Part shown: positions 7,598-47,083 of the stretch, one piece after another
Layout: each line of letters starts with the position of its first letter
Numbering within the stretch: the first letter of the stretch is position 1
DNA from: Mesostigma viride
Taxonomy: Eukaryota > Streptophyta > Mesostigmatophyceae > Mesostigmatales > Mesostigmataceae
DNA: 64,000 nt
Direction of reading: 5' to 3'
Assembly (NCBI GenBank): GCA_009746045.1
Contig: RPFO01000381.1
Span: forward strand, 2,501 to 66,500
Notes under the pieces: generated by a model
The model's input: the letters and a program-made list of their open reading frames with translations, nothing else
Database searches by the model: none
What the model was told of the DNA's origin: nothing
Translations under genes and position numbers: made by a program

Positions 7598-10100
7598 ACT
7601 TGCAAGCCATGCCAGCATGCCCCTGATGGTAGCACACCTAGCCTGCGTGATGGGCTCCTGCAATGCATCTACAATCTGCTGTGGGTAGTCCTTACCACCC
7701 TCCATCCTGATGAACCACGAGCCCTTGGCTTGGAACAACGTAGCCTGCATGCCACAGAAGACCATAGGCTCATTCTCCACCATGTGCTGTATCTTACCCA
7801 GCTCAAACCGCTTCTGGATCTTAGCCAAGACAGCCTCAAACCAGTCTGGCGGACCTATGAGATGCAGGTCATCACCATGCAGTGAGGCAAAGACAGGAAG
7901 ACCATTGTAGGACCCTTGGAACAAACAGGGATCCACTGGAGACACTGAGAACCCACAAGTATTCTTCAAGAATTTCTCTAGGCTCTTTCTCCAGATAATG
8001 GGACTGGACCTGAGACCTTCCAACCCTTTCAGAATTCTCAGGTACCTGGCCTTTATCTCTGCTCTCCATACAGCAGGTACAGTCACAAAGAAAGGAGGGA
8101 TATCTCTCCAAGTCTGCCTAGCCTGATCTTGGTCACCCTTGAGAAAAGCCCTCTTGAAATCAATCAGCACAGAGCTATAGGGCACACCCTTAACCAGAAA
8201 AGACAGAAATATACACAGCAGAATCCTCCACGTGTCATGCAGCATCCCTGGAGTATAGAGCTCCTCATCTAACAACTGGCCAGTGCCATGATACTCGGTT
8301 ACAACTGGTCTGACATGTGGCACCTGGACACCATCAACCTCCTTGAGCTTGAGGACAAACATCAATCTGAGCAGCTGGTGAACTTCTGGCAGCTCATCCA
8401 CAGGTTCTGCACAGTTGGAAACTATCCACTCATGCCCAGAAGCAACAAAGCCAAGAGTCCATGCCTTAGCCATCTTGGGGCTTTGCATCATCTCGACTAG
8501 CTGGCGCCAGGGAATAGGACTGTGAGCAGCTATCTGGTACCTGTTTACCCCTAACTGCCTTGGATCAAAGGTGGTTGGGATTATCAACAAGTCCTCAGCT
8601 ATGGGCTCCTGACTCTGAGGACCCTCAGCTGGCTGACTCCTAACAGCCTTCACCGCCACTGCAAGACCCTGGGAATAGTGATATCTTTCAAGGGGGAGGC
8701 TGCCCCTGCCTTCTAGTGCCAACTCATCAGAGGTCAAAGTAACCCCTGGCATGCACAAGAAGTTCTGTCCCAGAATGGCAGGCCCCTTATAGCCCTCTAC
8801 CACACAGAACGTGGTGGGCACCCCTAAGATAGGCACACTCACTTCCCCAAGGATCTTCATGGACACCTTTCCTGAGAAATCAGACACAGCAAGGCAACTG
8901 GGATGGGACATCTGTAAGCCTACAGCATCCTCTTCCCTGATGACAGACACCTGTGAGTTGGTATCTACCTCCATTGTAGCCGCCCAGCACGACCCCCACC
9001 CCGTGAGCTTGGATACCTTGGGATCATGTTTGCTGCGCATGAGTGCTCGGATGACGTCCGCCATGAGAGGCCCCCGGGCCTTAGGTGGCTGCCCCGTCCC
9101 CTCTGGCCTTGTGACAGTTGCTTCAGCAGCCTCCTGCTCGTCATCTTCCAGTAGGGACAGACCATCATCCACCACAGGAGGACTGTTAGCTGCTGCTGCC
9201 TGGCTCTGGCCTGGCTCCTCAACCCAGCTGGGAGGGCCTGGCCCGTCTGCAGGCCAGATTGCATGTGGCCTTCTCTCCTTGACATGAGCCCAGGACAACC
9301 TGTACACGTGCCTTGGATCCTTTTCCAAAGCCACCAGGCAAGATCTGTTAGCTTCTTCCACACGAGTGACAACCCCATCCTGCCACTTCCCCCGCTTGCC
9401 TGGAATAGATGGTTCCTTCCACATCCTGACCTTCAGCCCCACCTGAGGCCTCAGCACATTCCAGTTCTTGTCCTTACGTCTCAGCTGGGCAAATAACCTA
9501 TCTGCCTTCCTAAGACTGGCCTGCACCACGTTCTCAGGTAACAAGCTATACTGCAGGGCCAGGGGAGAGACAGCCACACCATCAAAGTAATAGTTAACCC
9601 TGTGGTTCAGCTGCTCTTCTATCCCCTTACACCAGGCTGCCCTCTCTAAGGCAGATGCCACAAGTGGCACTGACTCTGCTGCTAGCACCACTGTCTTTAC
9701 TTCACGTATGGATCTCTCTACAGCCCCTTGCTGCCCATGACTCTCCCTGGGGACTACTACCAGCTTACAAGGCAGCTGGTCCTGATGCTTGAGCAAACAG
9801 TCAAACTGCAAGTCTGCCTGCACACTCTTGCACACCCCAAAGCCTGGGATCAGGGCCTTCATACCCAACAACAAGTGGTGCTCCTGCATACCAGGCAGAA
9901 CGTCTATCAGTCTATATCTGCTGAACCTGTCCACTGCCACCAATATATACAAGCCCCTGATATGCTGGATATCCATCTGGATGTCGCCACGCTCCCTAGC
10001 AGGCTCCCTAGCATGGGACTGAGGTGGGTGAACAGCATTCTCCTGGCAACCACAGTTCTCAGCAGCAGCCTGGCATGCCTCCCACAAAGGCTCCCCATTA
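7598..10100 (-). CDS. E1 pol, 3' part: integrase core, protease, RT (truncated)
   Basis: One open frame. It starts with the Cys-x-Cys end of the integrase zinc-binding region, then the integrase core: a first Asp in MDIQHI, a second in VQADLQF, and Glu in HGQQGAVERS. The protease follows (DTNSQVSV, Asp-Thr-Asn codons at 8957-8965, and ILGQNFL), then RT with DFKRAFLKGD, LKGLEGLRSSPIIW and HGDDLHLIG (HGDD at 7868-7879). RT is cut after the GMLAWLAS region by the TA element, so RNase H is lost. Protease after integrase is not the Copia order (protease-integrase-RT) nor the Gypsy order (protease-RT-integrase). The two RT aspartates are kept but Tyr-Val is replaced by His-Gly. Confidence 0.88.
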
Positions 10101-10880
10101 CAATTCGTTCAAGTGGCCCGCCGGAGCGGCTGTACAATTTTTCCCAGTGAGCGCGCTGCCAAGTGTACTTGTGGGCAAATTTTTAGGTGCCCCGTCACTT
10201 CGAGGTACTAAAAATTAGGCTACGGTACGAATTCAGCGAATTTCAGCGAATTTTCAGTCGAACCAAAGGAAGTGACGCCAACTACCAAAAAGTTTCCGTT
10301 ACGAATTTTCAGCCCAACACTCGCGCAAAATGAAGTGACGGCAACTACCAAAAAGTTTCCGTTACGAATTTTCACTCCCACACGTTTGCACAAGAGGAAG
10401 TGACGGCAACTACCAAACAGTTTCCGTTACGAATTTTCAGTCCCACACTTCGCGCAAATTTTAGTAGGGCTGCACGCAAGCTACCTTTCAAAATTTTGCG
10501 CTAGTATGGAACGCATTTCATTCGTCTGGAGGAACGCTGCCCGCCAACTACCCCCGTTCAGAATGTTCCGCCGAAATTTACTTGAGATTTGGAAATCTGA
10601 ACGTGCGCGCAAATTTTAGTAGGGCTGCACGCAAGCTACCTTTCAAAATTTTGCGCAAGTATGGAACGCAATTCATTCGTCCGGAGGAATGCTGCTCGTC
10701 AACTGCCCCCGTTCAGAAAGTTGCGCCGAACTTTACTTGAGATTTGGAAATCTGAACGTGCGGTTGGAGTTTCGCGGGGAAACCCAAGTTCCCTAGTAAT
10801 TCACCAATGACGCGCTTCGAACACTTGTCCGCTAAAACCTAAGCAGCCGCTCCGGCTGGCCACTTAAACGAAACTTGATG
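10101..10880. mobile_element. 780 bp TA-flanked non-autonomous element in E1 pol
   Basis: The ends are imperfect inverted repeats with the core AAGTGGCC-GCCGGAGCGGCTG, about 28 bp with two mismatches when extended by TTCGTT. TA flanks both sides (10099-10100 and 10881-10882). Removing it with one TA restores the E1 integrase frame between KLG and NGEPLWEAC, matching the alignment with E2. Inside are three ~65 bp units (GAAGTGACGGCAACTACCAA, about 10265-10450) and two ~155 bp units (AGTAGGGCTGCACGCAAGCT, about 10457-10770). No coding capacity. Confidence 0.8.
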
Positions 10881-10882
10881 TA

Positions 10883-11325
10883 CCTAGCTTCCAAGCAAAC
10901 ATTGCTGCCTGCCCAGAATGCCCAAACATATGATGCAGTCTATGGCCAGCCTCAGCATAGCTCAGCACTCTGTCAGTACTGACCTGGCGAGACGTCTGAA
11001 CCGTGTGTGGGGACACATGATCCACTCCTGAGGTTCCAGGGCCTTCCTGCAGGCCATCCTGACTCCCCAAGCCAGGTCCTGCTCCCTGGACCGCTCCAGG
11101 CCCTTCCAGCAAGGTCCTTTGGCCCTCCAGGCCAGCACCTGCTGGAGACCCACCACCTGCATGAGGCATAGGGAATTCAGCTGCAGCATTGTTATTGCAA
11201 TCCAGTGGAAGAACAACATCTTTACACCCTTGGTGCTGCACAAGGGGCACACCCCCATCCTTATGTACATCCAACACACCTTCCCCAAGGGGTGATTGAC
11301 TATTTACAGGGGATGATGTAGCTAG
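10883..11325 (-). CDS. E1 pol, 5' part: linker and integrase zinc-binding start
   Basis: This open frame follows the gag stop directly and in the same frame (TGA at 11326-11328, then CTAGCT). A Gly/Pro/Gln-rich linker of about 110 residues leads to HRLHHMFGHSG, the His pair of an HHCC integrase zinc finger; E2 has HNMFGHATS at this point. The frame then runs into the 780 bp insertion. No ATG lies near its start, which supports expression as a gag-pol readthrough product. Confidence 0.8.
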
Positions 11326-12681
11326 TCACTGCTGCCCCGACTGGCCCCCTGCCCCAGCAGGCTTGGCCTTCCTTTCAGGACACTCACGACGCCAGTGACC
11401 TTCCTTGCCACACACAAAGCATGCTCCACCCTTCTTCCCAGACCCAGCCCCACCCTTGCCAGGCTTTCCCTGGCCTCCCTGAGACTGTCCACCCTGCTTG
11501 CCCTGGTTGCCTTGAGCTTGGCCCTTGCCTTGCCCTTGGCCACCCTTACCCTGCTGACCACCAGCTTGCTGGCTCCCAACCCCTCCTTGGGAACCTGGAC
11601 CCTTGCCACCCTGAGCCCCCTGCCTCTGGCGCCTGAAGCGCTTACGCTTGTTGGGCCTTGCCCCATCACGGGCTGGGTACCCGGGGACATCACCTTGGCC
11701 CTGCACAGCGGAGGTGGCATTGCTGCCATGGGACTGGATAGCTTTGCAGGCAGGATCTGGCTTCCTTATGCTGAGGATTACAAGCTCCAGAGCACGCAAG
11801 GAGCCATCAGTCTGGTTAAGAAACATGCGGGCACTGTTCCTCCCATCCACACTCAAACCCATACGGTCCAGGAAATAGTCTGCCAAGGCCCTATCTGTGA
11901 CCAGGAAGCCATACTTGGCCCCCTTGTCCCTGATACGGTTGAGCCTAGCCCATTCCTCTGCCACAGGGCCCACTATCTCAAAGGTGTCATACTGATGTTT
12001 ATAGTAGTTGGTGAGGTTGAGAACCTTGTCAGAGAACTCCTCCCTCAACCCATCCAGGAACTGTGCCCAGGTTAGCTTATCCTTGACACCAGTCCTAGCC
12101 TTTTCCCTGACACGCTCTGACGAGTCCCTGTTGCATGTGGACGAGTGAAACACTTGCACTAGGTTGACAGTGGGGTCCACGGAGAGCACAACCAGCTCCA
12201 TGTCCTCTAGCCACTTGTCTAGGGCTTCCTGTGCTAGTGGTGAGTTAAGAGGCTTTTGTCCATTCATAAGCGTGACTGCACTCATGTGAGGTCTCGACCC
12301 TGGCAGCGCTTTCACCGGCTCCACCACAGTGGGTGTCACAGTAACAACGCCACTTGGGCCAGCAAGCACAGGGGAGAGCACATCCACGTGAGGCCTCTTA
12401 CCATTGCCGTCAGCGGAGGGGTCCCTCTTACGCTTCTCCACGGCAGGTTGCCCATTCGCCACCGTTATGGCATCAGATGCCCCTAGTGCCCGCGCCTTGC
12501 GCGCCTCTTCCACCGAGTCTTCGTGCCGTCTCTTGCTGCCTGGTCTCTTTCCCCCATCGCCCTCGCTGGCTGGGATCGCCTCCCCCACCATCTGCTCCTT
12601 GTCGTGCCGAGGCTCCTGGCTTGCTCCAGCCGGTGCCTCCATCTCGCCCTTGTCGCCGTCTCCCGGTTTGCCACGAGGCAT
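11326..12681 (-). CDS. gag: E1 gag with one CCHC zinc knuckle
   Basis: A 451-residue nucleocapsid-type protein. The N-terminal ~110 residues are charged and low-complexity. The middle ~200 residues form a helical capsid-like region. The C-terminal third is Gly/Gln/Lys-rich and ends in a CX2CX4HX4C knuckle, CFVCGKEGHWRREC, that should bind RNA. The stop is UGA in the context CAG-UGA-CUAG, and pol continues in the same frame. UGA-CUAG is the best-known eukaryotic readthrough context. The start is the ATG at 12681, 52 nt after ORF1 ends and in a different frame. Confidence 0.88.
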   Translation of the reverse strand: MPRGKPGDGDKGEMEAPAGASQEPRHDKEQMVGEAIPASEGDGGKRPGSKRRHEDSVEEARKARALGASDAITVANGQPAVEKRKRDPSADGNGKRPHVDVLSPVLAGPSGVVTVTPTVVEPVKALPGSRPHMSAVTLMNGQKPLNSPLAQEALDKWLEDMELVVLSVDPTVNLVQVFHSSTCNRDSSERVREKARTGVKDKLTWAQFLDGLREEFSDKVLNLTNYYKHQYDTFEIVGPVAEEWARLNRIRDKGAKYGFLVTDRALADYFLDRMGLSVDGRNSARMFLNQTDGSLRALELVILSIRKPDPACKAIQSHGSNATSAVQGQGDVPGYPARDGARPNKRKRFRRQRQGAQGGKGPGSQGGVGSQQAGGQQGKGGQGQGKGQAQGNQGKQGGQSQGGQGKPGKGGAGSGKKGGACFVCGKEGHWRRECPERKAKPAGAGGQSGQQ

Positions 12682-12733
12682 TATATACAGTGGGATGGCA
12701 AAACAAAACAGGCGATAGACAAGGAAAACAGGC

Positions 12734-13882
12734 TCAAGCGCTGGTGCTGCCGGAAGAAGCCGCTGGATGCTCTTCAGCTATGGCCTCCTCCTCACGCTCC
12801 TGCGCTGTGCGTGCCACCGGTGTCCCCACGCGTGGAACTGAGCGGACCTCCTCCGCGTTGTAAGGACCGAGCACACGGCTCACCGGCCTCCCGGCTGCTG
12901 TCTGCTCTACCGGCAGTCTAGGCGCACTGCCACGGCGATACCACTGAAGATTTCTGACCCACCGACTACCACCACCTCGCCGGTCGTTCCGCGAGCCCCG
13001 ACCAATCTCCCCAAAATCGTGTTCCGGCTCAAAGGGGATGTTTAACTCTGCCCTGCGCCTGGCCGAGTATCCCTCGTTTGTGCCGTCACCCTCGTCAATC
13101 TGTTGTGACGAGCGGGCTATGATTCCCGTTGGCCGGTCCACGAACTGATCGTGGAACTCCTCGTCGGAGACGTCTCGACCGGTGATGACTGTCACCGTCG
13201 GCCCAGTCGCCCCTGGCCTGCTCTGCAACCTCGGAGTGTCCAAGGTCGACCAAATCCCCGGCGGCCGCGTAGTGATCACCCAGTGATCGGCGTGACCACG
13301 CGCCTCTTGGATCAGAATGTTGACCAGGTGCTCACACGTTTGAGCCACCACCTCGGCCGAATCCCACGGGCTATCGGCCTCGCGCGTCTGCGCGTCCCGT
13401 ATGATATGTGACGCGTCGGTCCCCTCCCCCAGCGAGCTTGTCGCCACCCAGTGATTATACAATCTGGTTCCACCTAAACAGATGGCCACCAGTTGGCCCA
13501 GCGTTTCACGCGCTAAGTCCAGCGCCTGGATGGTTACGTGCCCGCCCTGGTACGCAACTTCTAAACTGTAGATCAACGAAGCAATTTCGTCGCGAATGGC
13601 GACGAGGCGCTCCGTGCAGACCCGTCCTGTTTCCCCTGGCGACGTCGTCGCCCTAATCCTCATCACCACAGGGTCGTTTGCCGACGGCCCTGCTGCGTTA
13701 CCGAACACAGCGACCCAACCTCCTTCCGCAAGGCCCCTTGCAACGTGGGCCGCTTGCACAAATGTAGAAGCGTTGGACGGGTGATTATAGGGGAAGAATG
13801 CGTCTTCGCGCGCCGGCAACTCTGGAGCTGCTTCGCGCCTGGGAGATGACTCAGGTAGAGTAACCCGAGCCTCGGCCGACAT
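12734..13882 (-). CDS. E1 ORF1, protein of unknown function upstream of gag
   Basis: A 382-residue ORF whose ATG lies 32 nt inside the element from the 5' LTR. The N-terminus is Pro/Glu-rich. The middle (about residues 80-170) is predicted helical, with many Leu, Ile and Val. The C-terminus is Arg/Glu-rich. No recognisable domain, zinc finger, signal peptide or membrane segment. E2 has an unrelated-looking ORF in the same place. Standard Copia elements have nothing here. It could be an accessory protein, or a captured host sequence. Confidence 0.7.
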   Translation of the reverse strand: MSAEARVTLPESSPRREAAPELPAREDAFFPYNHPSNASTFVQAAHVARGLAEGGWVAVFGNAAGPSANDPVVMRIRATTSPGETGRVCTERLVAIRDEIASLIYSLEVAYQGGHVTIQALDLARETLGQLVAICLGGTRLYNHWVATSSLGEGTDASHIIRDAQTREADSPWDSAEVVAQTCEHLVNILIQEARGHADHWVITTRPPGIWSTLDTPRLQSRPGATGPTVTVITGRDVSDEEFHDQFVDRPTGIIARSSQQIDEGDGTNEGYSARRRAELNIPFEPEHDFGEIGRGSRNDRRGGGSRWVRNLQWYRRGSAPRLPVEQTAAGRPVSRVLGPYNAEEVRSVPRVGTPVARTAQEREEEAIAEEHPAASSGSTSA

Positions 13883-13914
13883 GAAACCTTTGCAAACAGA
13901 AATGCAATAGTACG

Positions 13915-14212
13915 AGTTAGCGAGCAGCCAGAACTGTGAGTTCCTGGTCTCTCACGCCACACAACGGGATGAGCCAAAGTTGCAAGGCAGCAACCTTTTA
14001 ACCCGTGCACCAAGCCACGACCACGGTAAGCGGTTCCACGTCCAATGTGGGAGCCTCGGTTCGTGCTTGCCAAGATATATAGCTGGTCATCCCCCATGAC
14101 CAAGCTATATCCTTTGCGTTGTTCCTCGTTCCCATCGGCGTGACGAGGCACGTGCAGGCAGGCAAGCAAATCCTCAACGTCCACTGGCATCAGTGCAGAG
14201 CCAGGACGAACT
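13915..14212 (-). repeat. E1 5' LTR (298 bp), AGTT...AACT ends
   Basis: Bounded by AGTTAGCG and GACGAACT, the same terminal signature as E2-E4, and lying directly upstream of E1 ORF1. The partner LTR is missing, so the boundaries are inferred from the signature and position. No target duplication can be tested. Confidence 0.6.
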
Positions 14213-14388
14213 GGATTTGCCTAGACTCTGCAACCTAGGAAGTACAGGACCTGTCACAAGCCTGCAAGGTCTAGTATCCTTGCAGACCTGTGCCAGTTCC
14301 TGTAGTCCACCAGTCACAGGTTACTGCTCCTCTGGTCTACGTGGACCACAGTCACGTGATAGTCAGGCTAAGCCTGCGCAGGCACGGC
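14213..14388. other. Short spacer between E1 and E2
   Basis: 176 bp without a recognisable feature. It ends with ACGGC (14384-14388), the left target duplication of E2. Confidence 0.6.
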
Positions 14389-15004
14389 AGTTAACGTAAA
14401 GGATTTACGTTAGATGGATAGAGATTGTTACGCTCTTTCCAACGGCACCTTGAACGCCTCATTTGGTTAAGGAACGTAAAAGTTATGACGTTTCCTAGGC
14501 TGTGCCGACAGTACCCGGCGCGCCACTGTGGGCGCGTACGGACACAGGATGTACAAGTGTCACTTTGATAGTCCGCAGGACGTTGACAGGACTTGTACAG
14601 GACTTGATGGTCAATTGATAGGTAGGCGCACTGTAGCGCGCCAGGACCTATGAGACAGTTGATGCTGACTAGTGTACGGATAGGTCCACAGGACTAGCCG
14701 TATGGACAATTGATAGATCTGCGCGCCAAAGGCGTGCCAGAGTCTGTGTAATCAATTGATTGACAGTTCAGCTGTGACAGTGCAGCTGAATACTTGGACG
14801 CGTCCCTAGCAAGCTATATGAGTGACTTGGTCACACTGGGGCGCTAGCTCTTGCGTGCACGCTCTCTTGGCATAACGACCCTGTCGTCTGTGCTACGTGC
14901 AGTCTCGGACTTGACGTGACTTACGTCTGTGTTTGCTCATTATAATAAAGGCAACTTTCCTGCAAGAGCCATGGATTCCCTCGGTGGTAAACTCTCATTC
15001 AACT
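14389..15004 (+). repeat. E2 5' LTR (616 bp)
   Basis: Begins AGTTAACGTAAAGG and ends CATTCAACT. AATAAA at 14944-14949 is a likely poly(A) signal near the 3' end. The sequence after it (CGTATTACAATC) is not a standard initiator-Met primer binding site. Confidence 0.95.
14944..14949 (+). promoter_or_regulatory. AATAAA poly(A) signal in E2 LTR
   Basis: AATAAA 55 bp before the LTR end, repeated at the same place in the 3' LTR. Confidence 0.5.
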
Positions 15005-15031
15005 CGTATTACAATCTTCGTACCAAGAAAA

Positions 15032-15817
15032 ATGCCGGACTCGATGGAGTTCCGCATTCCGAGGGATTCTGAAATTTTGGGCAGTCCAGCGGACATCGCC
15101 GAATCTCCGGCTGGTCCTTCGACGACTCCTGTTCGTGAAGATCGTCCGGTTCTTAATCCGGCGTGGCAGCGTGTTGTTGACCAGGCGGTAGCGTCCAGTG
15201 CGGAGCTACGCGCTCAGCAGCAGGCACTGCTGCAAAACCTACGACTGCCGCCCCCGCCTCCGCAACCTTCGATTGTTTCGGGGTTTCGCGATTACCTTGA
15301 TTCCATTCGAGCTTTGCTCGCGGACTTCGAGGTCCATACCCGGGCGGGGTTGCAAGCGCCCAGCGCGGTTGCCGAGGTCTCTGAGGAGATCGACAACGCG
15401 GTTTCATCGCTTACAGGTTACCAGCGCAATCTCGCTAACTGGCTGTCGGTTCGTTCGGGCGTCATTCCGACGATTACGACCAACCTGTTTCAAGACCTTG
15501 CGATTCTGCAGTTGCTGTCGCGAGGCTTCCGGACGCGTGAGCGGCAATTGCTGCTCAATCTTGTCGCGTTCTTGTCTGCATTGCGAGAGTGGGCGCCGGA
15601 CGGGTGGGATTTTCTAACGATTCTTACCAACCCGCTCCGCATCGTCACCCGCCGCCGTCGTCGCCGCATTGATCCGGTGACGGGACGTCGGTTGGACCCC
15701 ATCGTCATCGAAACTCCGGTGACGATTGAGGTTGGGCAAGGCCAGGAGGCGCCTGCGCCTGTCGCCAACGATCCAATTTACGACTACGACTACTGCGATT
15801 TTCGTGGTCTCGACTGA
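15032..15817 (+). CDS. E2 ORF1, protein of unknown function upstream of gag
   Basis: A 262-residue ORF whose ATG lies 27 nt after the LTR. It has a Ser/Pro-rich N-terminus, a long Leu-rich helical middle (about residues 50-190), a basic cluster of five to six Arg followed by a DPVTGRRLDP segment, and an acidic Tyr/Asp-rich tail. No known domain. It resembles E1 ORF1 in position and general make-up (helical middle, Arg-rich part) but not obviously in sequence. The basic cluster could bind nucleic acid or act as a nuclear signal; that is inference. Confidence 0.7.
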   Translation: MPDSMEFRIPRDSEILGSPADIAESPAGPSTTPVREDRPVLNPAWQRVVDQAVASSAELRAQQQALLQNLRLPPPPPQPSIVSGFRDYLDSIRALLADFEVHTRAGLQAPSAVAEVSEEIDNAVSSLTGYQRNLANWLSVRSGVIPTITTNLFQDLAILQLLSRGFRTRERQLLLNLVAFLSALREWAPDGWDFLTILTNPLRIVTRRRRRRIDPVTGRRLDPIVIETPVTIEVGQGQEAPAPVANDPIYDYDYCDFRGLD

Positions 15818-15939
15818 ATTCGGCATGGTGGCGCGGTCGGCACCGGGGCAGGCGGCTTTTTGACAGATTGTACATATCTACCTGTCTTTTGTTTTCCAGC
15901 TGCTTAGCTCAGGGCCATACACAGCTAGTGTAGTTTACC

Positions 15940-17045
15940 ATGGCTGAGGGACGCCGTAGCAAGGGCCTAGCCAGTGGGAATAATAATGGGGGTGCTGGTA
16001 GCGGGACCGCTCACGTAGATGACGTGGGGGTTACCGGCGAGATTACCAATGTGCCTATTAATAATAATACACATGCTGTCTCTGGATATGATCTCACCAC
16101 ACAGGGTCTCCTTATTGTTAATCAGCTGCAACCTGTCACTTCAGACTCAAAGCCAAAGCAGGCAGAGGAGTTTGTGGAAGGACTAGAGGGGTTTCCAAGC
16201 TTGTACGGGGTACAAACTATTATCAGATCTGGATAGGCAGCCAGACTTTTGGCAAGTGCACAGATCAGATTAAAGACCTCACTAGAGAGTGCAAGAAGGC
16301 CAACAAGGCCTGGGCAGTCTACGTGGCAGAGCTGAGGGAGCTGCTAGAGGATCAACGGAAGAAAGTGGGGATCCATTGGCAGGATAAATACCAAGGGTGG
16401 GAGGTTAAGGGAGACCTTATCCAGAACTTCCTCAATTATTGTAAAATGGTTGAGGAGGGCAGGGCTCACGGCTTCAATGTCGCTGACAGCATAGCCCTGA
16501 CAAACTGGCTCAAGGTTTCTGGGCTGGACAAGGCAACACGTGGCTCTTTAAAGGTCATGTGTGCCCCACACTCTACCCTCAAGGCCTACAAGGTCATAAT
16601 CAAACAAGCACTCGAGGCAGAGGAGCTGTTTGAGGGTGGAATGCCAGCTGTGAAGGCTACCCACGCAGGTGGGCGTGCCCAGGGGGGCTCCAAGACGTCT
16701 GAGGCTGACAGAAGCCAAGGAGGACGTGGGGGCAACCACAACAAGCGGAAGGCCAACCATTCACCCGACCCTGACGGGCAATCACATGCCAAGTCGGTGT
16801 TCAGGAGGGTGGGTGGTAAGCCCAGGCAGGGTAACGCGCCTGACAACGGGGGAGGAGGCCAGGGCAAGTCAAAGATCCAGTGCTACCTGTGCAAGGGGTG
16901 GGGGCACATCAAGAAGGAGTGTCCCAGCTTCAAGAAGACCCAGGGCCAGGGCAGCAACAAGAAAAACAACAACAAGAACAACAACAAGTCCCAGGCAGGC
17001 CAGCCTTCAAAGGGCAGTCAGCAAGAAGACAACAAGGAGCAGTGA
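15940..17045 (+). CDS. gag: E2 gag with one CCHC zinc knuckle (one frameshift)
   Basis: ATG at 15940, 122 nt after ORF1. The frame breaks near 16208-16212 (TACGGGGTACAAAC) and continues one frame over to the UGA at 17043. One more G would join the two parts. The C-terminal basic, Asn/Lys-rich region holds a CX2CX4HX4C knuckle, CYLCKGWGHIKKEC. The stop context is CAG-UGA-CUG and the downstream frame is open in phase through to pol. Confidence 0.85.
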
Positions 17046-20000: not shown

Positions 20001-20671
20001 TGTGTCCCATGGTGAGGGGCATGGTTGCTTGGGTGGCAGGCATTTCCAGGCCAGACCTTATGGTCATAGCCAGGTTGCCTGATGACATGCTGACAGAGCT
20101 AGGGTCTGCCAAGGTGGCTGATCAGGTCAGGGCTTCGTCTGGCATTCTGTTGTCTGCAGTGGATTTATCACAACCCATTTGCATGGAGCTGTATGTGGAT
20201 AGCTCAATGGACAGCAGGCAGGTCTCCAAGGTCAGGGGCAGGGCTGCAGGGCTCTTTGTGCTCAGACAGGAAGGCCTGGGGAGTTTGGTGAGCTGGTTCA
20301 GTCGCCTGCACAAACGGGTGGCTGTCAGTAGTGATGTGGCAGAATGCAGGGCTATTTGTGAAGGCATTCACACAAGCCTTTATCTGAAGGAGTTGCTTCA
20401 TCAGATGACTTCTAACACTCCTTGGCCACTTCAGGTTACCACTCTTCTAAAAACAGACTCCATGGGGATGGTGCAGTTTGTGCACAGGCAGATGGCCAGA
20501 AGTAGGGACTTGGATTATCTCCTTCTTAAGGAATTGTCCTCCTTGGCCAATATTGAGCATATCCCTGGGGTTGACAATCCTGCTGATGCTTTGACCAAGC
20601 TAGTGCAGAAGGCAGCAGTGCAATACAAGGTTCTTCAGTCTCTGATGGACCCATCTCAGCAAGCTGTCTAA
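17046..20671 (+). CDS. pol: E2 pol: integrase, protease, RT, RNase H (one frameshift)
   Basis: In phase with gag after the UGA. A ~150-residue linker leads to the HHCC zinc region (HNMFGHATS ... CKCQ). Integrase has Asp at 17676, Asp at 17832 and Glu at 17922 (HGQQGAIERA). Protease is DTNSQVSI (18684-18692) with LLGQNFL. RT has DFKRAFLEGD, LKGLEGLRSSPIIW and HGDD at 19761-19772. The frame breaks in the G7 run at 19913-19919; one more G would reconnect it. RNase H of Copia type follows, with DSSMDSRQ, AECRA, TDSMG and PADALTK. An ATG at 17187 lies in frame, so internal initiation is an alternative to readthrough. Confidence 0.92.
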
Positions 20672-21622: not shown

Positions 21623-22238
21623 AGTTAACGTAAAGGATTTACGTTAGATGGATAGAGATTGTTACGCTCTTTCCAACGGCACCTTGAACGCCTCATTTGG
21701 TTAAGGAACGTAAAAGTTATGACGTTTCCTAGGCTGTGCCGACAGTACCCGGCGCGCCACTGTGGGCGCGTACGGACACAGGATGTACAAGTGTCACTTT
21801 GATAGTCCGCAGGACGTTGACAGGACTTGTACAGGACTTGATGGTCAATTGATAGGTAGGCGCACTGTAGCGCGCCAGGACCTATGAGACAATTGATGCT
21901 GACTAGTGTACGGATAGGTCCACAGGACTAGCCGTATGGACAATTGATAGATCTGCGCGCCAAAGGCGTGCCAGAGTCTGTGTAATCAATTGATTGACAG
22001 TTCAGCTGTGACAGTGCAGCTGAATACTTGGACGCGTCCCTAGCAAGCTATATGAGTGACTTGGTCACACTGGGGCGCTAGCTCTTGCTTGCACGCTCTC
22101 TTGGCATAACGACCCTGTCGTCTGTGCTACGTGCAGTCTCGGACTTGACGTGACTTACGTCTGTGTTTGCTCATTATAATAAAGGCAACTTTCCTGCAAG
22201 AGCCATGGATTCCCTCGGTGGTAAACTCTCATTCAACT
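21623..22238 (+). repeat. E2 3' LTR (616 bp)
   Basis: Same length as the 5' LTR. I noted differences in the ACAGTTGATG/ACAATTGATG and CTTGCGTGC/CTTGCTTGC stretches. Followed by the target duplication ACGGC. Confidence 0.95.
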
Positions 22239-24893: not shown

Positions 24894-24933
24894 TGGACTG
24901 AAAAGTTCGATATTTTTTTCGCAAAAAAAAAAT

Positions 24934-25760: not shown

Positions 25761-25826
25761 TAGGCGTGAGGCGGCTGCGATGCCGCCTGCGACGGGCGCG
25801 GGGCGGCAGACGCCCCCAACACGCCC

Positions 25827-27588: not shown

Positions 27589-27653
<65 letters not shown>

Positions 27654-32913: not shown

Positions 32914-32918
32914 ATGGG

Positions 32919-37842: not shown

Positions 37843-38271
37843 AGTTGTGCTCCCGAGTGGCATCTATCCGCTGGCCGGTAGTCGCCGGCCTGGGCGCCTA
37901 GTCAGGTGGGCATCAAAGATTGGTGTCTAGATGCTAGTCGGTGCCTAAGCAAGGTACGGAAGCCAGTGCGCGCCGGGACGGTCAGAGAACCGTCGCCCTC
38001 GGTAGCACAGATCCGCTGAGTGCCGGTAGTCTCGGGTTAGAGGCTCGAGCATGCACTATCGGGTAGCCTACCGGTAGTCTCGGGTTAGAGGCTCGAGCAT
38101 GCCTTATCGGTTAGCGCCGCGCCGCTGAGCTCCTTGCGGCCTGGCCAGCTGCAAGGGTTCAATAGCAATCAGTGGCGGCTGCGGGCTCAGCCTCCCACAA
38201 TCGGTTCCCCAAACAACAAAAATCCCGTCTCCATCGCCGGCGTGCTAGCCAGCGGTGAAGGGCGTTCAACT
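37843..38271 (+). repeat. E4 5' LTR (429 bp)
   Basis: Begins AGTTGTGCTCCCGAG and ends GGGCGTTCAACT. It contains a direct repeat of GGTAGTCTCGGGTTAGAGGC (about 38022 and 38080). Confidence 0.95.
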
Positions 38272-38292
38272 TGTATTCACAACAGTCAACAT

Positions 38293-38730
38293 TGTCAGAA
38301 GTATCGACACACCTGCCTGAAACTAGTACTTATAGTTTAGTGCTAGCTCTCATGCTGGACTACATGAACGGGCATGTGCCGCATGTTTAAGTTCTGTTCC
38401 ATAAGTGACCCAGTCATTCTGTGACTGACCTTGAACTTTGGTTGTGAATGGTTGGCTTGAGATCACGTTATGATTGTAACTGCCACACAGTCAGAAAAGA
38501 ACCGGTTTGGTGTGGCCACGTTGTAGGTAGATCATAACTGCTACCCAGTAGCTGAGCCTGGAATTGTTTAAAAGGCGAAGCTACGCACCTTGTTTGCTCT
38601 CTTAGTACCTCACACCTCACACACTCCTGTGGTGGAACTAGCAGCCGGCCAGCTGCCGACTGAGACTTATTTTTATCTGAGTGAAATAAAGTAAAACTTT
38701 GTGGCAAACATTGTTTTCTCACTCCTAACA
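38293..38730 (+). repeat. Nested Copia 5' LTR (438 bp)
   Basis: TG...CA ends. TTTAAAAG (about 38567) is a possible TATA element and AATAAA at 38686-38691 a poly(A) signal. Confidence 0.95.
38567..38574 (+). promoter_or_regulatory. Possible TATA element in Copia LTR
   Basis: TTTAAAAG about 120 bp before the AATAAA signal; the same in both LTRs. Confidence 0.35.
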
Positions 38731-38745
38731 TGGTATCGGAGTGCG
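38731..38745 (+). promoter_or_regulatory. Primer binding site, initiator-Met tRNA type
   Basis: TGGTATCGGAGTGCG directly after the LTR. It closely follows the plant Copia consensus TGGTATCAGAGC. Confidence 0.75.
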
Positions 38746-41523
38746 GTTGCGTTCGTTCCGGGCGTCCGCGGCCACGGCGCCTGTGGAGCTTCGCTCCGAC
38801 CAAGACGCGGTTTTCACTGGCCAGGACTGGCGCGCCGTCTGCGCCGAGTATGGCGTGCGGCAAGAGTTCTCGTCCCCCTATACGCCGGAGCAGAACGGCG
38901 TGGCGGAGCGATTCTGGGGCGTCGCAGTTAGCATGACCAGGAGCATGCTGGCGCATGCTGGCCTCGGCAAGGAGTTCTGGGCTCTAGCCTTTGCATGCGC
39001 CATCTACATCATCAACAGGCTGCCCTGCCGCAGCAACCCGGAGCACGCAACGCCCTACTTCCTCATGTATGGGCGCCCTGCGGATTTATCCGGCATGCGT
39101 GTGTTTGGCTGCCCCTCCCACGTCTTGGTTGAGGGGGCAGCCCGTGAGAAGTTTGATTCTCGCGCTGAGGATGGCCTCTTCGTGGGATACAAGCTTGACT
39201 CCCCGGCCTACCTCGTATGGGTGCCCGACAAGGCGACGGGCGGCGGGCGTGTCATCGAGCGCAAGCACGTGCAGTTCGACGAGACGTGGCGCAACCGGGC
39301 CCCGCAGGCTGCGCAGTGGCTCCCGGCGGCCCCCTTTGCGGAGGCCGACCTCTTTCCCGCCGACATGCTGACTCCTGCCCCTTTGCAGTTACCCTCTGCC
39401 TCTGCCGAGGACTCTGGGGGGCCGGCAACGCCCTCCACTGCCTTGCCCGCAGGCCGTGAGGACAGCTATGTCAGCATCGGGGGGACTCCTGAGCGTTTCG
39501 TTCTCCCCCCGGCCGCCGCTGCGGCCATCCAGGCACTTGTGCGGAACGGCCATGCTCCGACGGCTCCGGCTCCTGCCTCGGCGCCGACATCTTACCTCAC
39601 CGTGTCAGATGCTCGACAGCATGCCCCTCTGTTGCGCGGACAGGCCTCTGGCCACTCGCGTTCTGCGGCGTCATATGAACACGCCGGGGCGGGGATGCCT
39701 CCGCCGCATTTGAGTACCTCGGTTGACCTGGAGAGCACGGCTGACAGCACCGGCTATTCTCCTCCGGCGTCCCCTGGTGCCTCTGCAGGTCTCCTCCCCG
39801 TGTGGGGTTCCCGTGGTGCTGCCTTGTGTGGCGACCTTTCTCATGGCAGTAACACCCCCGCTCCCCCTGGTTTCGGGGGCGATGATGTATTGGATGACGC
39901 ACTTTCTTCCTGGCCGGATCAACCTGTCACCAAGGCTGCACGGATCCACGCGCATCACTCACTTGTCGCTGACCTGTGCTTCGCTGCTGCTTTTCATAGC
40001 CAGCCTGCGTCCGTGCCCTCCTCTCCCGCTGCCGCCCTTGCCTTGCCGGAATGGCGCACGGCCATGGAGAGTGAGCTGGCCAGCCTCCAGGAGCACCAGG
40101 TTTACGAGCTTCTGCATATGCGTGATCTTCCGCGCGGTGCCAAGCTCCTACCCACCAAGTGGGTCTTCGCCCAGAAAGCTGATGGGCGGTGCAAGGCCCG
40201 GTTTGTGTGCAAGGGGTTTGCACAGCGCGAGGGCATTGATTTCGGTGAGACTTTTGCTCCCACCGTCCGTGCTGCCACCGTGCGCATGGGCTTGGCTCGT
40301 GCTGGCACTGCTGGCCACCCCATCCGGCAGCTGGATGTCCGCACCGCGTTCCTCTATGCTGAGTTGGAGGAGGACGTGTATGTCCTTCCCCCCAAGGGCT
40401 TTGAGGAGCGCGACCCTACTGGCCAAACGTACCTCTGGCGCCTCCGGCGGAGCCTCTATGGGCTCAAACAGGCGCCCCGGAACTGGCACCACACGCTCCG
40501 GGACTACCTCATCCATGAGACTGGCGCTGTCCAGAGCACCACGGACACGTGTCTGTTCCTGTATGTTGGTGGTTTTGCCTTCGTCCATGTCGACGATCTC
40601 CTGGTCTCCCACTCCTCGGCGGAGTGGCTATCGCAGTGGACCCAACGGGTGTCCCAGCGCTTCCAGATCACCGAGACGGATGCCCCCTCCCTCTTTCTGG
40701 GGGTCTCCCTGGTCCTCGACCCGCCGGCGCGCACAGTTTTTCTGCACCAAGGCCCGTACCTGGAGGCCCTCGCTGAGCGCTTTGGGGTCTCCCCACGGGC
40801 GGTGAAGACGCCCGTCGTCCCCAACACCCCCCGTGGTGAGGGGGGGCTTCTCAACGCGGACGACACTCGCGTCTACCAAGCGATCACCGGGGCACTCCTG
40901 TATGCGATGGGATGCACTCGGCCTGACCTGGCATTCGCAGTCAACCTGCTGACTCAGAATATGAAAAACCCTACTGTAAGCGACCTTGGGCTGGCACGCC
41001 GGGTGCTTCAGTACGCGGTACACACCAAGGACCTGGGTCTGTCCTACTCGGGGCAGGGGGGCTGGTGGCCTACTCGGATGCCGACTGGGCAAACGATCCT
41101 GTGGACCGCAAGTCAATCACTGGCAACGTGGTCATGTACCGCGGTGCTGCGGTGGAGTGGACCAGTCGCAAGCAGCCCACTCCAGCCCTGTCCACCTGTG
41201 AGGCCGAGTACATGGCCCTGTGCGGTGTCACGCAGCAGGTGGTCCCCCTTCTCACCATCACCAAGGAGTTGGGTGACCCGGCCTCAGGGCCAATTCAGGT
41301 GTTTTGCGACAACACTGGTGCTGTGGCTCTGTCACGAGACCCTGTTCACCCTCGGCGTACCAAGCACATCGACGTCAAGTACCACTACATTCGCGCGAAG
41401 GTCGCGGATGGCACCGTTCAGGTGTCTCACCTTCCTGGGGCAGCGATGATCGCCGACATGCTCACCAAGGCACTACCTGAGCCACGTTTTGTGGAGCTCA
41501 GACACAAGTTGTTGGGTATTTGA
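38741..41523 (+). pseudogene. pol: Nested Copia pol: integrase C-part, RT, RNase H
   Basis: The frame opens at the integrase second Asp (ELRSDQDAVF), then PYTPEQNGVAERFW with the catalytic Glu, the GKEFWALAFACAIYIINR region, and FGCPSHV. RT follows with KARFVCKGFAQREG, LDVRTAFLYAEL, SLYGLKQAPRNW and the normal FVHVDDLLVS active site. The frame breaks in a G6 run at about 41055; one G more would continue it into RNase H (AYSDADWAND, STCEAEYMAL, HIDVKYHYIR, DMLTKALP) ending at 41523. A canonical Copia, clearly distinct from E1-E4. An ATG of its own is doubtful. Confidence 0.93.
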
Positions 41524-41664
41524 GTTACTGGCAATTAGTGATGAGACAACATAAGGACACACTTGCTAGCCTGTGACACTGGTCCCATACTACAGTTCTT
41601 TTAGTGAACATTTGTTCTGGCTTGCTTGAGTTTGTTTTCCGGCCTGTGTGCCGAGTAAGGGGGG

Positions 41665-42106
41665 TGTCAGAAGTATCGACACACCTGCCTGAAACTAGTA
41701 CTTATAGTTTAGTGCTAGCTCTCATGCTGGACTACATGAACGGGCATGTGCCGCATGTTTAAGTTCTGTTCCATAAGTGACCCAGTCATTCTGTGACTGA
41801 CCTTGAACTTTGGTTGTGAATGGTTGGCTTGAGATCACGTTATGATTGTAACTGCCACACAGTCAGAAAAGAACCGGTTTGGTGTGGCCACGTTCATTGT
41901 AGGTAGATCATAACTGCTACCCAGTAGCTGAGCCTGGAATTGTTTAAAAGGCGAAGCTACGCACCTTGTTTGCTCTCTTAGTACCTCACACCTCACACAC
42001 TCCTGTGGTGGAACTAGCAGCCGGCCAGCTGCCGACTGAGACTTATTTTTATCTGAGTGAAATAAAGTAAAACTTTGTGGCAAACATTGTTTTCTCACTC
42101 CTAACA
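41665..42106 (+). repeat. Nested Copia 3' LTR (442 bp)
   Basis: Carries an additional CATT in CACGTTCATTGTAGG relative to the 5' LTR. Followed by the target duplication AACAT. Confidence 0.95.
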
Positions 42107-42136
42107 AACATTACCGTTGACCATTTTTCTGGGCTC

Positions 42137-43343
42137 ATGGCGCGTGGCGCGGAGCGAACGCAAGCTGCAACCCAGGACCAGGGAACGCAAGCATCAACTC
42201 CGGCGGATGGGAGTGGCGCAGCCACCGTGGCGACTGAGCCAGCTGGGGGCTCGGTCAGCACAGCTCCGGGGCAGCAGTCAGCACCAACTGCCCGGAAAGT
42301 TTTCAAGAAAGAAGAGCTGCCAAGTAAGCTGCCAGAAATTCTGACGCCGTCCGCCGTGGAGGAGTTTATTAACAGCCTGGGCGAGCTCCGGCAGGACTAC
42401 AACGAACTGTCCGACGCAGTTTTTCCTCACCAAGCTGCGCCGGTCAGAGGTATGCAACGAGTCTACGGGTAATGCGGACGTGCGCGGGGTCATTATCAAC
42501 GCCAGCAAAGAGGCGTGGACCTGGCCCGACACAGTGAAGGCCCTGCAAGAGGTGCTTGACACCTCAAGCTTTCCTGACGAGGAAAAGGAGGGGCAGGCGC
42601 TGGTGCGCAACCTGTCGCTTGACCCGAACTACCTCAGCTCGGACATGGCCAGATTCGCGGCCCAGGTCCGGAGCAAGGGTGTCTTGAAGCATATGAGTAG
42701 CGAATATTTACTCAGCGCAGTTCTGGATGCGCTGGGGCTGACGCCAGAGAGCCGTGCCAATGTCAAGGCCGGTCTCGGCATGAAAATTGCGCTAGCTTCT
42801 TCCGTGGTAGTGGGCACCCCGGACGACCAGAAACGGTTCAACGCAGCCATGGCGCACCTCCGAGAGATGTTCAAGGACCGGGGCGGCCCCAGGCGTAACA
42901 ACAAGCTGCCGACAGTTGCTCAGGTAAACCCTGTGCCTGCCTCGACCCCGCCAGCAGCTTCTCTGTCGGACTTGACCACTCTTGTTACCCAGCTGTCCAC
43001 GACGGTGGCCGACAACGTGGTGCGAATGTTGGGTGGCAAACGCCGAGCTCGCGGTGGTCGGCACAACCAGAACGCGTCCAGCAAACGCGGGCCGGGAGGC
43101 GGTCAGGGCAAGCAGCCTCGACAGGAGGGCGGCGCTGGCAGGCAGCAACAGCAGCAGGGTGGCGTCCCCAAGGAGAAGGTCGTCTGCGAGCGGTGCACCG
43201 GCGTGGGGCACACCGAGGCCAACTGCACGCTGCGGCTGGACCTCGGCAAGGCGACTCGAGTGTGCCGGCGCTGCTGGGCGGTTCGGCTTCCTGGACACGA
43301 CCCCAACACATGCCGCGCCCCACGGCCAGCCATGCCCAAGTGA
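42137..43343 (+). pseudogene. gag: E4 gag with two zinc knuckles (one frameshift)
   Basis: The ATG at 42137 opens an Ala/Thr/Gly-rich N-terminus, then FKKEELPSKLPEILTPS. The frame breaks at about 42470 and continues at 42480 with a helical capsid-like region (DPNYLSSDMARFAAQVRS), an Arg/Gly/Gln-rich segment and two knuckles, CERCTGVGHTEANC and CRRCWAVRLPGHDPNTC. The stop is AAG-UGA-CGU and the frame stays open in phase for 118 codons beyond it. Confidence 0.82.
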
Positions 43344-46300
43344 CGTCATAGAGGTGATGTGTGTCGCGGTGAGTCGGCTAGGCGTGAGGATGCTGTGCCT
43401 TGTAGTCCTAATGTTCCCACGTCCGTGGTTCAGAATGGAAGTGCAAGTGCTGCAGCTGATCAGGAGTGCGTGCCCAGCGTGGTCGCAATAGAGCCTGAAC
43501 ACGCCCTTCCGGAGCTCACCCCTTCAGGTGAGATAGTGCCGGCAGATGCCGAGGTAGCCCCTCACGTAGACGTGGAGTTGGGTCGCCGCCTCAGTAAGGC
43601 CTCACTAGAGCACATTGCCGACAGGAATGCACATGCAGAGAGCTTGGCGGGGCAGGTGCCTAGCATAGAAGGGGATGGCACCACCCCACGGCCATAGGAT
43701 TGCGGATGCTTGCTCACCAGATTCACCTTGCGGTGGGTCATGTGGCGGGGCAAACGCTAGACTGGGCGACTAGGCTTATGGGGGCGCCGGGTTGAAGGTC
43801 GCTCAGGCGGAGTTAGAGGAGTGCCACGCATGCGCAAGTGTCCGGAAGAAGCGTAGGCGCTGGCATGCTAAGACTCCTTCCCCGTACCGGGGGAGGTTAG
43901 TGGGGGATGTCATGCATTTGGAGGAGGGGGACTATTATTTGGTCTTGATGGATCGCTATACCAAGTTCCTAGCCATCGAGCCCCTGCCAAGCATGGTAGA
44001 GGAGTCCTTGTGGCGGGGCTGCGCATTGCCATGTCTCACTTCTTTCCCATTTCTGAGGTCATGTTGGACCAACAATTTGATTGCATTGTGGGGCGGGAGG
44101 GCTGTGAGATGGTGGTTATTGCTGGGCGGCAGGACCATGGCAACTTGGGGCTGATTGATAGGCACATCAGCAGCGTAAAGGGCATGGCAGCCAAGCAGCA
44201 GGCCAGCGGGTTAGGATTCAAGCCCGCGGGGCAGCCTTATGCACAACGCGCGCTGTGGTGCCGCTTGCTCATGGACAAGTACAACAGCCAGGTGCTTTTC
44301 AAGCTGCCCCAGGGACTAGGTCTTATTACCGCGCGGGGGGCTGCAGTCGGGCATTTACCCTCCGGACGTGGCAGACCATTGGGAGGCCACCTCGCTACCA
44401 CCGCTGAGGTTAGGCGGCAGTTAGACCGCACCCAGCCTGACTTGTCGCAGGAGTGGGAGCTGGGGGAGTTGGTCTTGTTTCACAAGGAGAATTCCTTTGG
44501 CAAGCGGGGCAGATGCAAGGGCCAGGCATGGTGGTGGATTTGGACTGGGTGCATAGGCGGGTGAAGGTGCACTGGGAGCATAGGGACTATCTCATCCCGT
44601 GGGATAAGGTGTATCGGTACAAGGCGTCCGATGCCCAGGTCCAGGCGGCCAAGGAGCACAGCCGCCAGCTCGGTTGGGAATGTGGATAGCCGGCCGGCCA
44701 AGCGGGCCCGGCTGGAACCTGTCCTACCCACCCCACTTGGGGTGGCTGTGCATGATGCGCTTGTTGCCCACCCCCCTGCAGGCGCCGCGCCGGAGCAAGT
44801 CCCCGGGGTCGACGCGGGGGCGCTACCTCAGCCCCTCCCCGCGACCCCAGCAGCGCCCACCGTGGCGGCGCCGGACACATCGTCAGGCGCGGGCGTGGGC
44901 TCCCAGCTGGCCCACGTCCTCCGACAGCTGCTCAAGGCGGACAAGCTCAAGGCGGCGGCAGCGGGGGGTGCGGCACAAGTCAGCCGCGTCATGCCAGATA
45001 AGTGCCCCACGGTTGTGACTGAAGCTCATGATGTTCCCTCTAGGCATATTGCGGCCATAGATACCATGGCAGGCGTGTCTGTCACGAGCCCGGCGGCGGC
45101 CGAGGCCTATTACTATTCCCCTTTGCTGCCCAGTAGTGGAAGGAAGTTGCGGGGTTTGACGGGCAGCGGGCCTATAAGGTGGCTGGGCAGGTGCTCATGC
45201 CCATCCTAGGGGTAGATGTCCCTGTGCAAGTGCTAGAGGGTTACAAGGGGATCACCCTCATAGGTAACCCTTTTGTTTCCCTCCCCGGGTTTTCTGTGTC
45301 AGCCGGCTTGGTGACCCTCGAGGGGGTGGGGAGCATAGGCTTGTACCAATATCACGTAGCGCTTGCAGCCCTCACGGGCCGGGGTCCCCCGAGGCTATTA
45401 ATCACCCTGAGGATTATGCCACTGCAGTAGGGCCATTCGCGGGGCGGAATATACGGCAGAGCCGCTGGTAGCCGATGTCACGCAGCCGCAGAAGTGTCAC
45501 CCCAGCAGTCTTGGCATTTTCCCTGGAGCATCGCACTAAATCTCCTGTTAGTTATCCGCAGTTTAAGAGGACTGCCGTGACCCTGTCAAGTTCCATAAGT
45601 GGCGCGCGGCTTTCTTGCGCGCGCAGCTGGAGTGGGCGATGTATGGGTGTATGGGGAGTTGATGGAGGTGCCGCAAGGGGCGGTAAAGCTGAACTTGAAG
45701 TTTGTGCTCAAGTATAACAGGTCCTCCCCACTGACCCTGTCACAATTTCATGTACGGCCCTGTGTCACGGAGTTTAGGGGCTCGTCTGAGTTGTCGGAGG
45801 AGGAATTGTTTCCGCCCGGGCTGTCGCAGACCACTAGCCGGGTGTTAACATCGGTGTTCTTGGGGCTGTTGGATCGGGGGTTGGACTATGCCATGGCCTG
45901 CTCAGATTTTCAGCGGGCCTTTCTCCATAGCGACCGGCAGTGGCCGAGGAAGTGTGGCGTGGCACGGTGTATGTGGTCAAGGTCCCTTTGGTGTGGCAGG
46001 GGAGCTGCGGTGTGTGTACTTGCGGCTTCTCCTTGGTGTGGAGGGCCTGCAGTCTAGCCCCATCATCTTTCGCAAGACGGCTGAAGCATCTTTGCTAGCA
46101 TGGGGGCGGTGTTTTCCCGCATCGATAGCAACCTCTTTCACATCCACACACCCAACCCACAGAGCCCGCTTTCATGCAATGGCATGGGGATGACTGGCGG
46201 CTTCTTGGACCGCGGGCGTGGGTCCGGCAGTTCATAACCGCTGTGGCCAAGCTTTTGCCCACTAGCCGCACGTTGTGGCTGGACCCCGACACCCCCGTCC

Positions 46301-47083
46301 CTTTCTGTGGCCTAACCTACACTTTGCACCGCACACCGGTTGGCTGGTGCATTGACATGGCGGCCAAGCAGGAATACGCCGACAAGCTCGCGCAATCGCT
46401 GCCTGAGCGGCTGGATGCGTCCGCGGGACCGCACTTGCGCGGCCAGCTGGGGTGGCTCGCGGGCACGGTGCGACCCGACCTGTCCATCTACGCGCGTGCG
46501 CGCGACGCCGTGCTTGCGGGCATGGGACGCAGCATCTTCGGACGCAAGTCTTGGCGTCACCGGGCCTGCGCGTGTGGGGGTTGATATCACCCGCCCGGTG
46601 GCAATGACCATTTACTCTGACGCGAACCTGGAGTCGCGTACCATCACGCAGCTGGCGCGCGCGGGAGGCGGCCATCTTTTTTCTTGATAGCCCCACTGGG
46701 CAGCCCACTATTGTCGACTGGTATAGCCGCATCCATCAGCGGGTAGTGGTAGACAGCAATCGCGCGGAGTGTCGCGCGTTCATTTCCGCTGTCGACCAAG
46801 CGTGTTATGTGCAGCATCTTTTGCAATGGATTGCGGATAAGGCCCGCGTGGCGCTGTCGCTGCGCATCGGCTGTGCACAGATAGCAAGTCAATAATTGAG
46901 TTTCTGAATAACCCGCTCGCCTCCACCACCAAACTAGATTACCTTGTGTTGGCCGAGTCCGCCACGGTGTTGGATGAGCGGCGGTGGATCCCCGAGAGCG
47001 AGAATATTGCCGATGCCTTGACCAAGCCAGCGATGCTGTCGGGGCCTCAGTACAAGCTGCTGCGGCAGCTCATGATGACATGA
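43344..47083 (+). pseudogene. pol: E4 pol: integrase, protease, RT, RNase H (many frame breaks)
   Basis: Domains remain readable in order across shifted frames. Integrase: ECHACASVRKK, GDVMHLEEGDYYLVLMDRY, MLDQQFDC, then HGNLGLIDRHISS with Asp where the others have Glu. Protease: AIDTMAGVSV at about 45057, and LIGNPFV. RT: CSDFQRAFLHSD, GVEGLQSSPIIF, WHGDDWRLLG (HGDD at 46183-46194). RNase H: SDANLESRTI, RAECRAF, TDSKSI, ADALTKP, stop at 47081. At least eight frame changes. The damage contrasts with the identical LTRs. Confidence 0.85.

Follow-up and report, generated by a model that had tools for sequence, protein, structure and literature searches.

Long terminal repeat (LTR) retrotransposons are classified with the help of the order of their pol domains, which within Copia is reported to be uniform. 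In the part of their survey available to us, Llorens et al. (2009, PMC2774666) distinguish five states of the position of the integrase (IN), none with IN directly before the protease (PR) within pol, and describe PR as preceding IN in every known Ty1/Copia element. According to the same part of the survey, Gmr1-like Ty3/Gypsy elements carry, as an exception, IN before the reverse transcriptase (RT) and downstream of PR, and in Petunia vein clearing virus (PVCV), a caulimovirus and thus a plant pararetrovirus, IN lies upstream of gag and the other genes, so that an IN preceding PR is not wholly without precedent (PMC2774666). Here we describe LTR elements, E1 to E4, from a 64,000-nt stretch of the Mesostigma viride genome (GCA_009746045.1, contig RPFO01000381.1, positions 2,501-66,500, forward strand), referred to below as the window. 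The pol of this family reads IN-PR-RT-RNase H. Unlike Gmr1, a Gypsy member, the family has IN ahead of PR and an RT and RNase H of the Copia type; unlike in PVCV, IN follows gag, and PR stands between IN and RT. E1-E4 probably represent a Copia-derived LTR lineage in which a retropepsin of the ILG type with a D-T-x active site has taken the place of the Copia protease.

With Ty1/Copia the family shares homologous RT, RNase H and IN, the position of IN before RT, a target-site duplication (TSD) of 5 bp and a gag with a CCHC motif. It differs in having PR between IN and RT, in a PR of the ILG and not the Pol_BBD/LLS type, with D-T-x in place of D-[ST]-G, in an HxDD box in RT, and in LTR ends AGTT...AACT as against the usual, though not strictly defining, TG...CA. 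Neither the Ty1/Copia order (PR-IN-RT-RNase H) nor that of BEL/Pao (PR-RT-RNase H-IN) or Ty3/Gypsy (IN after RNase H or, as in Gmr1, downstream of PR) was encountered, IN being ahead of PR and RT in all four elements.

A sequence-only reading of the window had reported the order gag-IN-PR-RT-RNase H for all four elements. By tblastn and motifs this holds for E2, E3 and E4, and it does not for E1, which ends before RNase H. In E2 the positions proposed for the catalytic triad of IN (17676-17924; D211, D263 and E293 of the pol open reading frame, ORF), the catalytic Asp codon of PR (18684) and the HGDD box of RT (19761) were borne out, and an RNase H start at 20193 fits a first catalytic Asp (residue 110 of P0003) at 20198. 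The coding regions of E2, in window positions, are:

16122-17045, plus strand: C-terminal ORF of gag with one CCHC knuckle (zf-CCHC, E 0.0041, below the curated cutoff), ending in TGA at 17043-17045
17472-18365, plus strand: IN with zinc finger, DDE core (D at 17676, E at 17922-17924) and SH3-like C-terminal domain
18660-18977, plus strand: protease-like domain with DTN (18684-18692) and LLGQNFL (18873)
19200-19919, plus strand: RT, HGDD at 19761 (RVT_2, E 4.8e-6, below cutoff)
19922-20650, plus strand: connection and RNase H, first catalytic Asp at 20198 (tblastn; frame different from that of RT)

Two proteins span IN, PR, RT and RNase H in this order without a frame break: P0011, an ENA protein of 1214 aa, and P0012, of 1157 aa, whose label jgi/Mesvir1 we take to stand for M. 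viride. Used as tblastn queries, both were colinear with E2, E3 and E4 through IN, PR, RT and RNase H, with frame breaks. In E3, IN was placed at 28042-28893, the PR motifs at 29346-29558, RT at 30009-30872 and RNase H at 30827-31345; in E4, IN at 43747-44635, PR from 45057, RT at about 45599-46581 and RNase H up to 47074. E1, on the minus strand, has gag, IN, PR (VDTNSQVS at 8968) and RT, and its tblastn matches end at 7598 (P0011), 7592 (P0014) and 7535 (P0012); the zinc-finger part of its IN sits upstream of a tandem-repeat stretch at 10265-10762. The corresponding regions are:

27244-28929, plus strand: E3 end of gag (two zinc knuckles, by motif) fused in frame to IN at 28033-28926 (rve, E 0.011, below cutoff)
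29319-29639, plus strand: E3 protease-like domain, DTQ and LLGDPFL (PF13975, E 0.14, below cutoff)
29994-30884, plus strand: E3 RT, WHGDD at 30450 (RVT_2, E 2.4e-7, 31.1 bits against a cutoff of 31.6)
30827-31345, plus strand: E3 RNase H (tblastn)
42345-43343, plus strand: E4 end of gag, zinc knuckles by motif without a Pfam zf-CCHC match, ending in TGA at 43341-43343
43747-44635, plus strand: E4 IN in several frames (tblastn)
45057-45411, plus strand: E4 protease-like domain, DTM (IDT at 45057) and LIGNPFV at 45257, with a frame change inside
45599-46581, plus strand: E4 RT in several frames, WHGDD at 46180 (tblastn, motifs)
46577-47074, plus strand: E4 RNase H, broken frames (tblastn)
11329-12777, minus strand: E1 gag ORF with CCHC (zf-CCHC, E 2.3e-6, above cutoff), followed by an in-frame TGA at 11326-11328
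9284-10108, minus strand: E1 IN core and C-terminal domain (tblastn)
8672-9004, minus strand: E1 protease-like domain, DTN and ILGQNFL (PF13975, E 0.047, below cutoff)
7598-8440, minus strand: E1 RT, HGDD, the element being truncated ahead of RNase H (RVT_2 match of the ORF, E 2e-4, below cutoff)

E1, E3 and E4 are degenerate, E3 and E4 being disrupted by frame changes, and E4 harbours a nested element. Decay, nesting or misassembly in a repeat-rich window is hardly credible as the source of the order, though; this explanation is refuted by the uninterrupted order in P0011, P0012, all 46 scored copies of E2 (IN-PR-RT) and 10 full-length copies of P0012. A chance rearrangement, which the sequence-only reading had discounted, is excluded by the recurrence of the order in P0011 and P0012 and by the conservation of the PR segment, which is 34-60% identical between five members, compared with 6-29% for the linker that precedes it. 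Further relatives are P0014, with PR-RT-RNase H in this order, and P0013, which contains IN and shares 75% identity with E1 across 360 residues. Protein searches, each scoring about 8000 candidates and therefore giving a lower bound, returned relatives from Mesostigma and one ENA protein only, and the family alignment found no relative in the viral_contigs and genome_contigs collections.

The family has multiplied recently. All 46 scored candidates for the pol ORF of E2 in the genome, the window's own included, are 100% identical and open over IN, PR and RT (RNase H lay outside the query), and at eight of these loci the aligned DNA (5037 of 5967 bases in L033) agrees with that of E2 to 99.56-100%. 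P0012 matches at full length and 100% identity in 10 places on 10 different contigs, six of which share the top score. Among 10 further copies, nine have AGTT...AACT ends and a matching 5-bp TSD; the expected 5' end is missing at L055/L056. Near-identical copies with matching ends and TSDs therefore indicate recent movement.

The same termini and perfect 5-bp TSDs (ACGGC in E2, ATGGG in E3, GCCGG in E4) were found at all three elements of the window that have paired LTRs in self-blastn, namely E2 (14389-22238), E3 (24436-32913) and E4 (37843-47846). The two LTRs are 99.7% identical in E2, 98.7% in E3 and 100% in E4:

14389-15004, plus strand: E2 5' LTR, AGTT...AACT, 616 bp, TSD ACGGC at 14384-14388
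21623-22238, plus strand: E2 3' LTR, followed by TSD ACGGC
24436-24893, plus strand: E3 5' LTR, AGTT...AACT, TSD ATGGG
32455-32913, plus strand: E3 3' LTR (self-blastn, ends)
37843-38271, plus strand: E4 5' LTR, AGTT...AACT, TSD GCCGG
47418-47846, plus strand: E4 3' LTR (self-blastn, ends)
38293-42106, plus strand: Copia element N, nested in E4, with TG...CA ends, TSD AACAT (5 bp) and IN followed by RT

E1 is a truncated minus-strand copy at about 7520-13951, and no LTR pair was detected there. Downstream of the 5' LTR, E3 and N have a TGG-type primer site and E2 and E4 do not; the window gave no tRNA or Rfam match. N has near-identical LTRs of its own, the primer site TGGTATCGGAG and Pfam matches to RVT_2 (E 2.4e-42) and SH3_retrovirus. 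Its ORF begins inside IN and thus lacks gag and protease; N stands outside the E1-E4 lineage and served as a contrast.

Copia-type controls were collected by a Copia RT pattern, which gave 31 genome_contigs stretches and one viral_contigs locus (L001), 32 loci in total. L001 proved to be a chance hit, and N as a query found nothing in viral_contigs. A phmmer search with N recognised Copia-type ORFs at 21 of these loci; the remaining 11 were not used. Of the ORFs, 14 entered the control alignment, 12 of them giving PR, 14 IN, 14 RT and 11 RNase H. The Copia-type pol ORFs of L002-L032 lie on contigs of bacteria-labelled metagenome-assembled genomes, several from an uncultured Trichormus genome, and these contigs are apparently eukaryotic contamination.

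A second protease ahead of IN, named beforehand as grounds for rejecting the order, was not found by motif scan, by tblastn or by a profile test of E2 and P0011. The D-[TS]-[GA] scan of the whole window revealed no protease before IN in the elements, the single sense-strand match within an element (28540) falling inside the IN of E3; the E3 protease ORF as a tblastn query matched one place per element; and in E2 and P0011 the interval from gag to IN did not match the profile of the control PRs (0.1%). Nor does the region called protease fail all aspartic-protease models, the other ground named. It folds as a retropepsin, and its sequence matches to such models are weak. Its closest solved structure by fold is Ddi1, whose triplet is DSG, and by profile ASPRV1, with DSG in the alignment; both are cellular proteins, in contrast to a D-T-N/Q/M/L domain inside a retrotransposon pol. 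In phmmer the E2 PR matched 15 HIV-protease entries (best E 0.0019), yet also 10 NFAT entries.

In sequence the protease is not recognisable as that of Copia; it is a domain of the ILG type whose D-T-x triplet has no glycine. This had escaped the sequence-only reading, as had the AGTT...AACT ends of the LTRs. The second motif is LLGQNFL in E2, ILGQNFL in E1, LLGDPFL in E3 and LIGNPFV in E4. The control PRs mostly have a Trp shortly ahead of the catalytic triplet and an LLS-type motif, and the family PRs lack both. PF22936, the Copia-type protease family, matched all four control PRs given to Pfam and none of six family PRs, and in hhalign comparisons of family with control profiles PR reached only 0.4%, compared with 86.9% for IN, 99.4% for RT and 97.8% for RNase H. 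It is conceivable that the native Copia protease moved from before to after IN and then diverged, with no replacement at all, given that the functional class of the domain is the same and a single such domain was found per element. This is quite unlikely in view of the missing Trp and LLS-type motif, in whose stead LLG/ILG-x-x-F-L is found, and of a PR profile match so far below the 87-99% of the other domains; moreover, LLS is the form in Ty1/Copia PRs and ILG predominates in others, according to the part of the survey available (PMC2774666). The simplest reading is that an ILG-type protease, placed elsewhere in pol, replaced that of Copia, and we infer that the domain was acquired rather than diverged beyond recognition.

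The canonical D-[TS]-G triplet of retropepsins was not found in the family, the third residue being N, Q, M or L. E1, E2 and P0011 read DTN, E3, P0012 and P0014 DTQ, and E4 DTM; Asp and Thr are invariant in the PR-covering alignments, and the glycine is replaced in every copy read. The 38 genomic loci examined stem from two queries and hence sample two clades; 36 were readable, with 27 DTQ, 8 DTN, 1 DTL and no DTG, and two (L072, L085) were not read by the motif pattern. Because DT/SG is canonical for clan AA, as stated in the part of the source available (PMC2642776), the consistent replacement of glycine by N, Q, M or L could mean that the retropepsin fold no longer cuts and serves as a structural or dimerisation module, with maturation by a host protease or none. 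Such a pseudoprotease is unlikely, since invariant Asp and Thr would be needless in a dead enzyme, no other protease was found and the elements multiplied recently. Loss of the glycine is also not unique to the family: one of the 12 Copia-type control PRs, the putative protease of L003, aligns as D-S-A. The domain of the family is presumed to be active.

The claim that RT and RNase H are Copia-like agrees with the hhalign values given above. Seven family RTs (E4 represented by one frame-pure piece) were separated in a tree from 19 others, 18 Copia-type controls and N, by a branch with 100/100 support (L005, L024 and L025 were left out). A lineage of its own at superfamily level, outside Ty1/Copia and with Copia as its sister group, could account for the great length of this branch (1.86 changes per site on one side of the midpoint root, 2.51 on the other), for the HGDD, HADD or HVDD catalytic box in E1-E4, P0011, P0012 and P0014 as opposed to the usual Y/FxDD, for the D-to-E spacing of IN, counted by eye as 29-31 residues where the usual value is about 35, and for the unusual LTR ends. 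The RT and RNase H profile matches to Copia (99.4 and 97.8%), IN before RT as in Copia and the 5-bp TSDs make this unlikely. RVT_1 did not turn up in searches with 11 members at E 10, in which the HMMER filters drop most weak matches, and neither RT (A9) nor RNase H (A10) had a meaningful match in PDB profile searches.

In E1, E2 and E4, gag ends in TGA shortly past the zinc knuckles and pol continues in the same frame (TGA CTA, TGA CTG and TGA CGT, respectively); the UGA is also present in 8 of 8 E2 copies. E3 lacks such a stop, its gag running straight into IN. L061, a member of the P0012 clade, has gag and pol in different, overlapping frames; L075, a shorter copy, differs in this. Because of the overlapping frames, UGA readthrough was rejected as a general rule. 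Tca2 of Candida albicans is an ordinary Copia-group element. It likewise has a UGA between gag and pol, as described in the part of the source available (PMC2194720); in the present family this codon is seen only in E1, E2 with its copies, and E4. RT and RNase H of E2 are in different frames, joined at a G7 run (19913-19919) that recurs in 8 of 8 copies, unlike in P0011 and P0012, where both share a single frame. Recoding, assembly error and help from other copies are candidates for this break.

A mechanism can be proposed, in which Gag would be produced first and Pol reached by recoding, through the in-frame UGA (E1, E2, E4) or the overlapping gag frame (P0012 clade). The protease would dimerise in the particle and release IN, itself and RT-RNase H, and IN would then join the AGTT...AACT ends of the cDNA across a 5-bp staggered cut. 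That a Copia lineage swapped its protease for an unrelated-looking retropepsin between IN and RT, functional with Asn, Gln, Met or Leu for glycine, and that its IN joins AGTT...AACT ends, is put forward tentatively, with a little less than even confidence.

Several observations weigh against a Copia-derived lineage with an ILG-type protease in place of its own. Loss of a near-invariant glycine could signify an inactive domain, and a relocated Copia PR that had diverged past recognition would likewise give 0.4%. No family PR has a Pfam match above the curated cutoff, and the E2 and P0012 segments have none at all. Of the 12 control ORFs scanned by motif, 10 contain D-[ST]-G, but just 6 have the full canonical series of CCHC, D-[ST]-G, IN and YxDD in this order, and the profile test of the gag-IN interval is confined to E2 and P0011. 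RVT_2 was matched by 6 of 11 members, each time below the curated cutoff. The RT tree, which has no Gypsy, BEL or named Copia reference, does not resolve a position inside Copia from one beside it. Finally, the gag UGA is not general, E3 having no stop there and the P0012 clade having overlapping frames.

An extra ORF lies upstream of gag in E1 (12737-13951, minus strand, 405 aa) and in E2 (14915-15817, plus strand); that of E1 had no Pfam match at E 0.1. Textbook Copia is not known to have an ORF upstream of gag. Elsewhere in the window, at 50403-53906, two direct repeats of 739 and 738 bp are 99.9% identical; the 2 kb that separate them contain no ORF of 150 aa, and neither of the two boundaries tested has a 5-bp TSD. 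They are possibly a non-autonomous LTR element. A cluster of nested palindromes at 54307-55176 has arms of 103-247 nt that are 99-100% complementary and spaced by 0-376 nt.

No published description of the order IN-PR-RT-RNase H was found by phrase and title in the open-access literature. In the two M. viride genome papers (PMC6947507, PMC7027972), searched for repeat terms, LTR elements are counted or methods named, and the words 'Copia' and 'integrase' are absent from the main text as available. An undescribed or little-known lineage, as first suggested, fits the literature searched. Lineage and arrangement are real and well supported, the folds of both PR and IN being among the points shown, and part of the mechanism is conjectural. 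The elements also raise an annotation issue, as they fall under Pfam cutoffs and at least three sit as gene models in the public Mesostigma gene set.

The family is a well-supported exception to the uniform domain order reported for Copia, and, with a protease that seems to have been swapped, suggests that a pol reassembled from separate modules can still support multiplication of the element. It offers a natural test of retropepsin function without the glycine of the triplet and of the handling of ends other than TG...CA by IN. If the reading is true, it would add a new arrangement of IN to the five states of Llorens et al. and a new variant of the retropepsin catalytic site.

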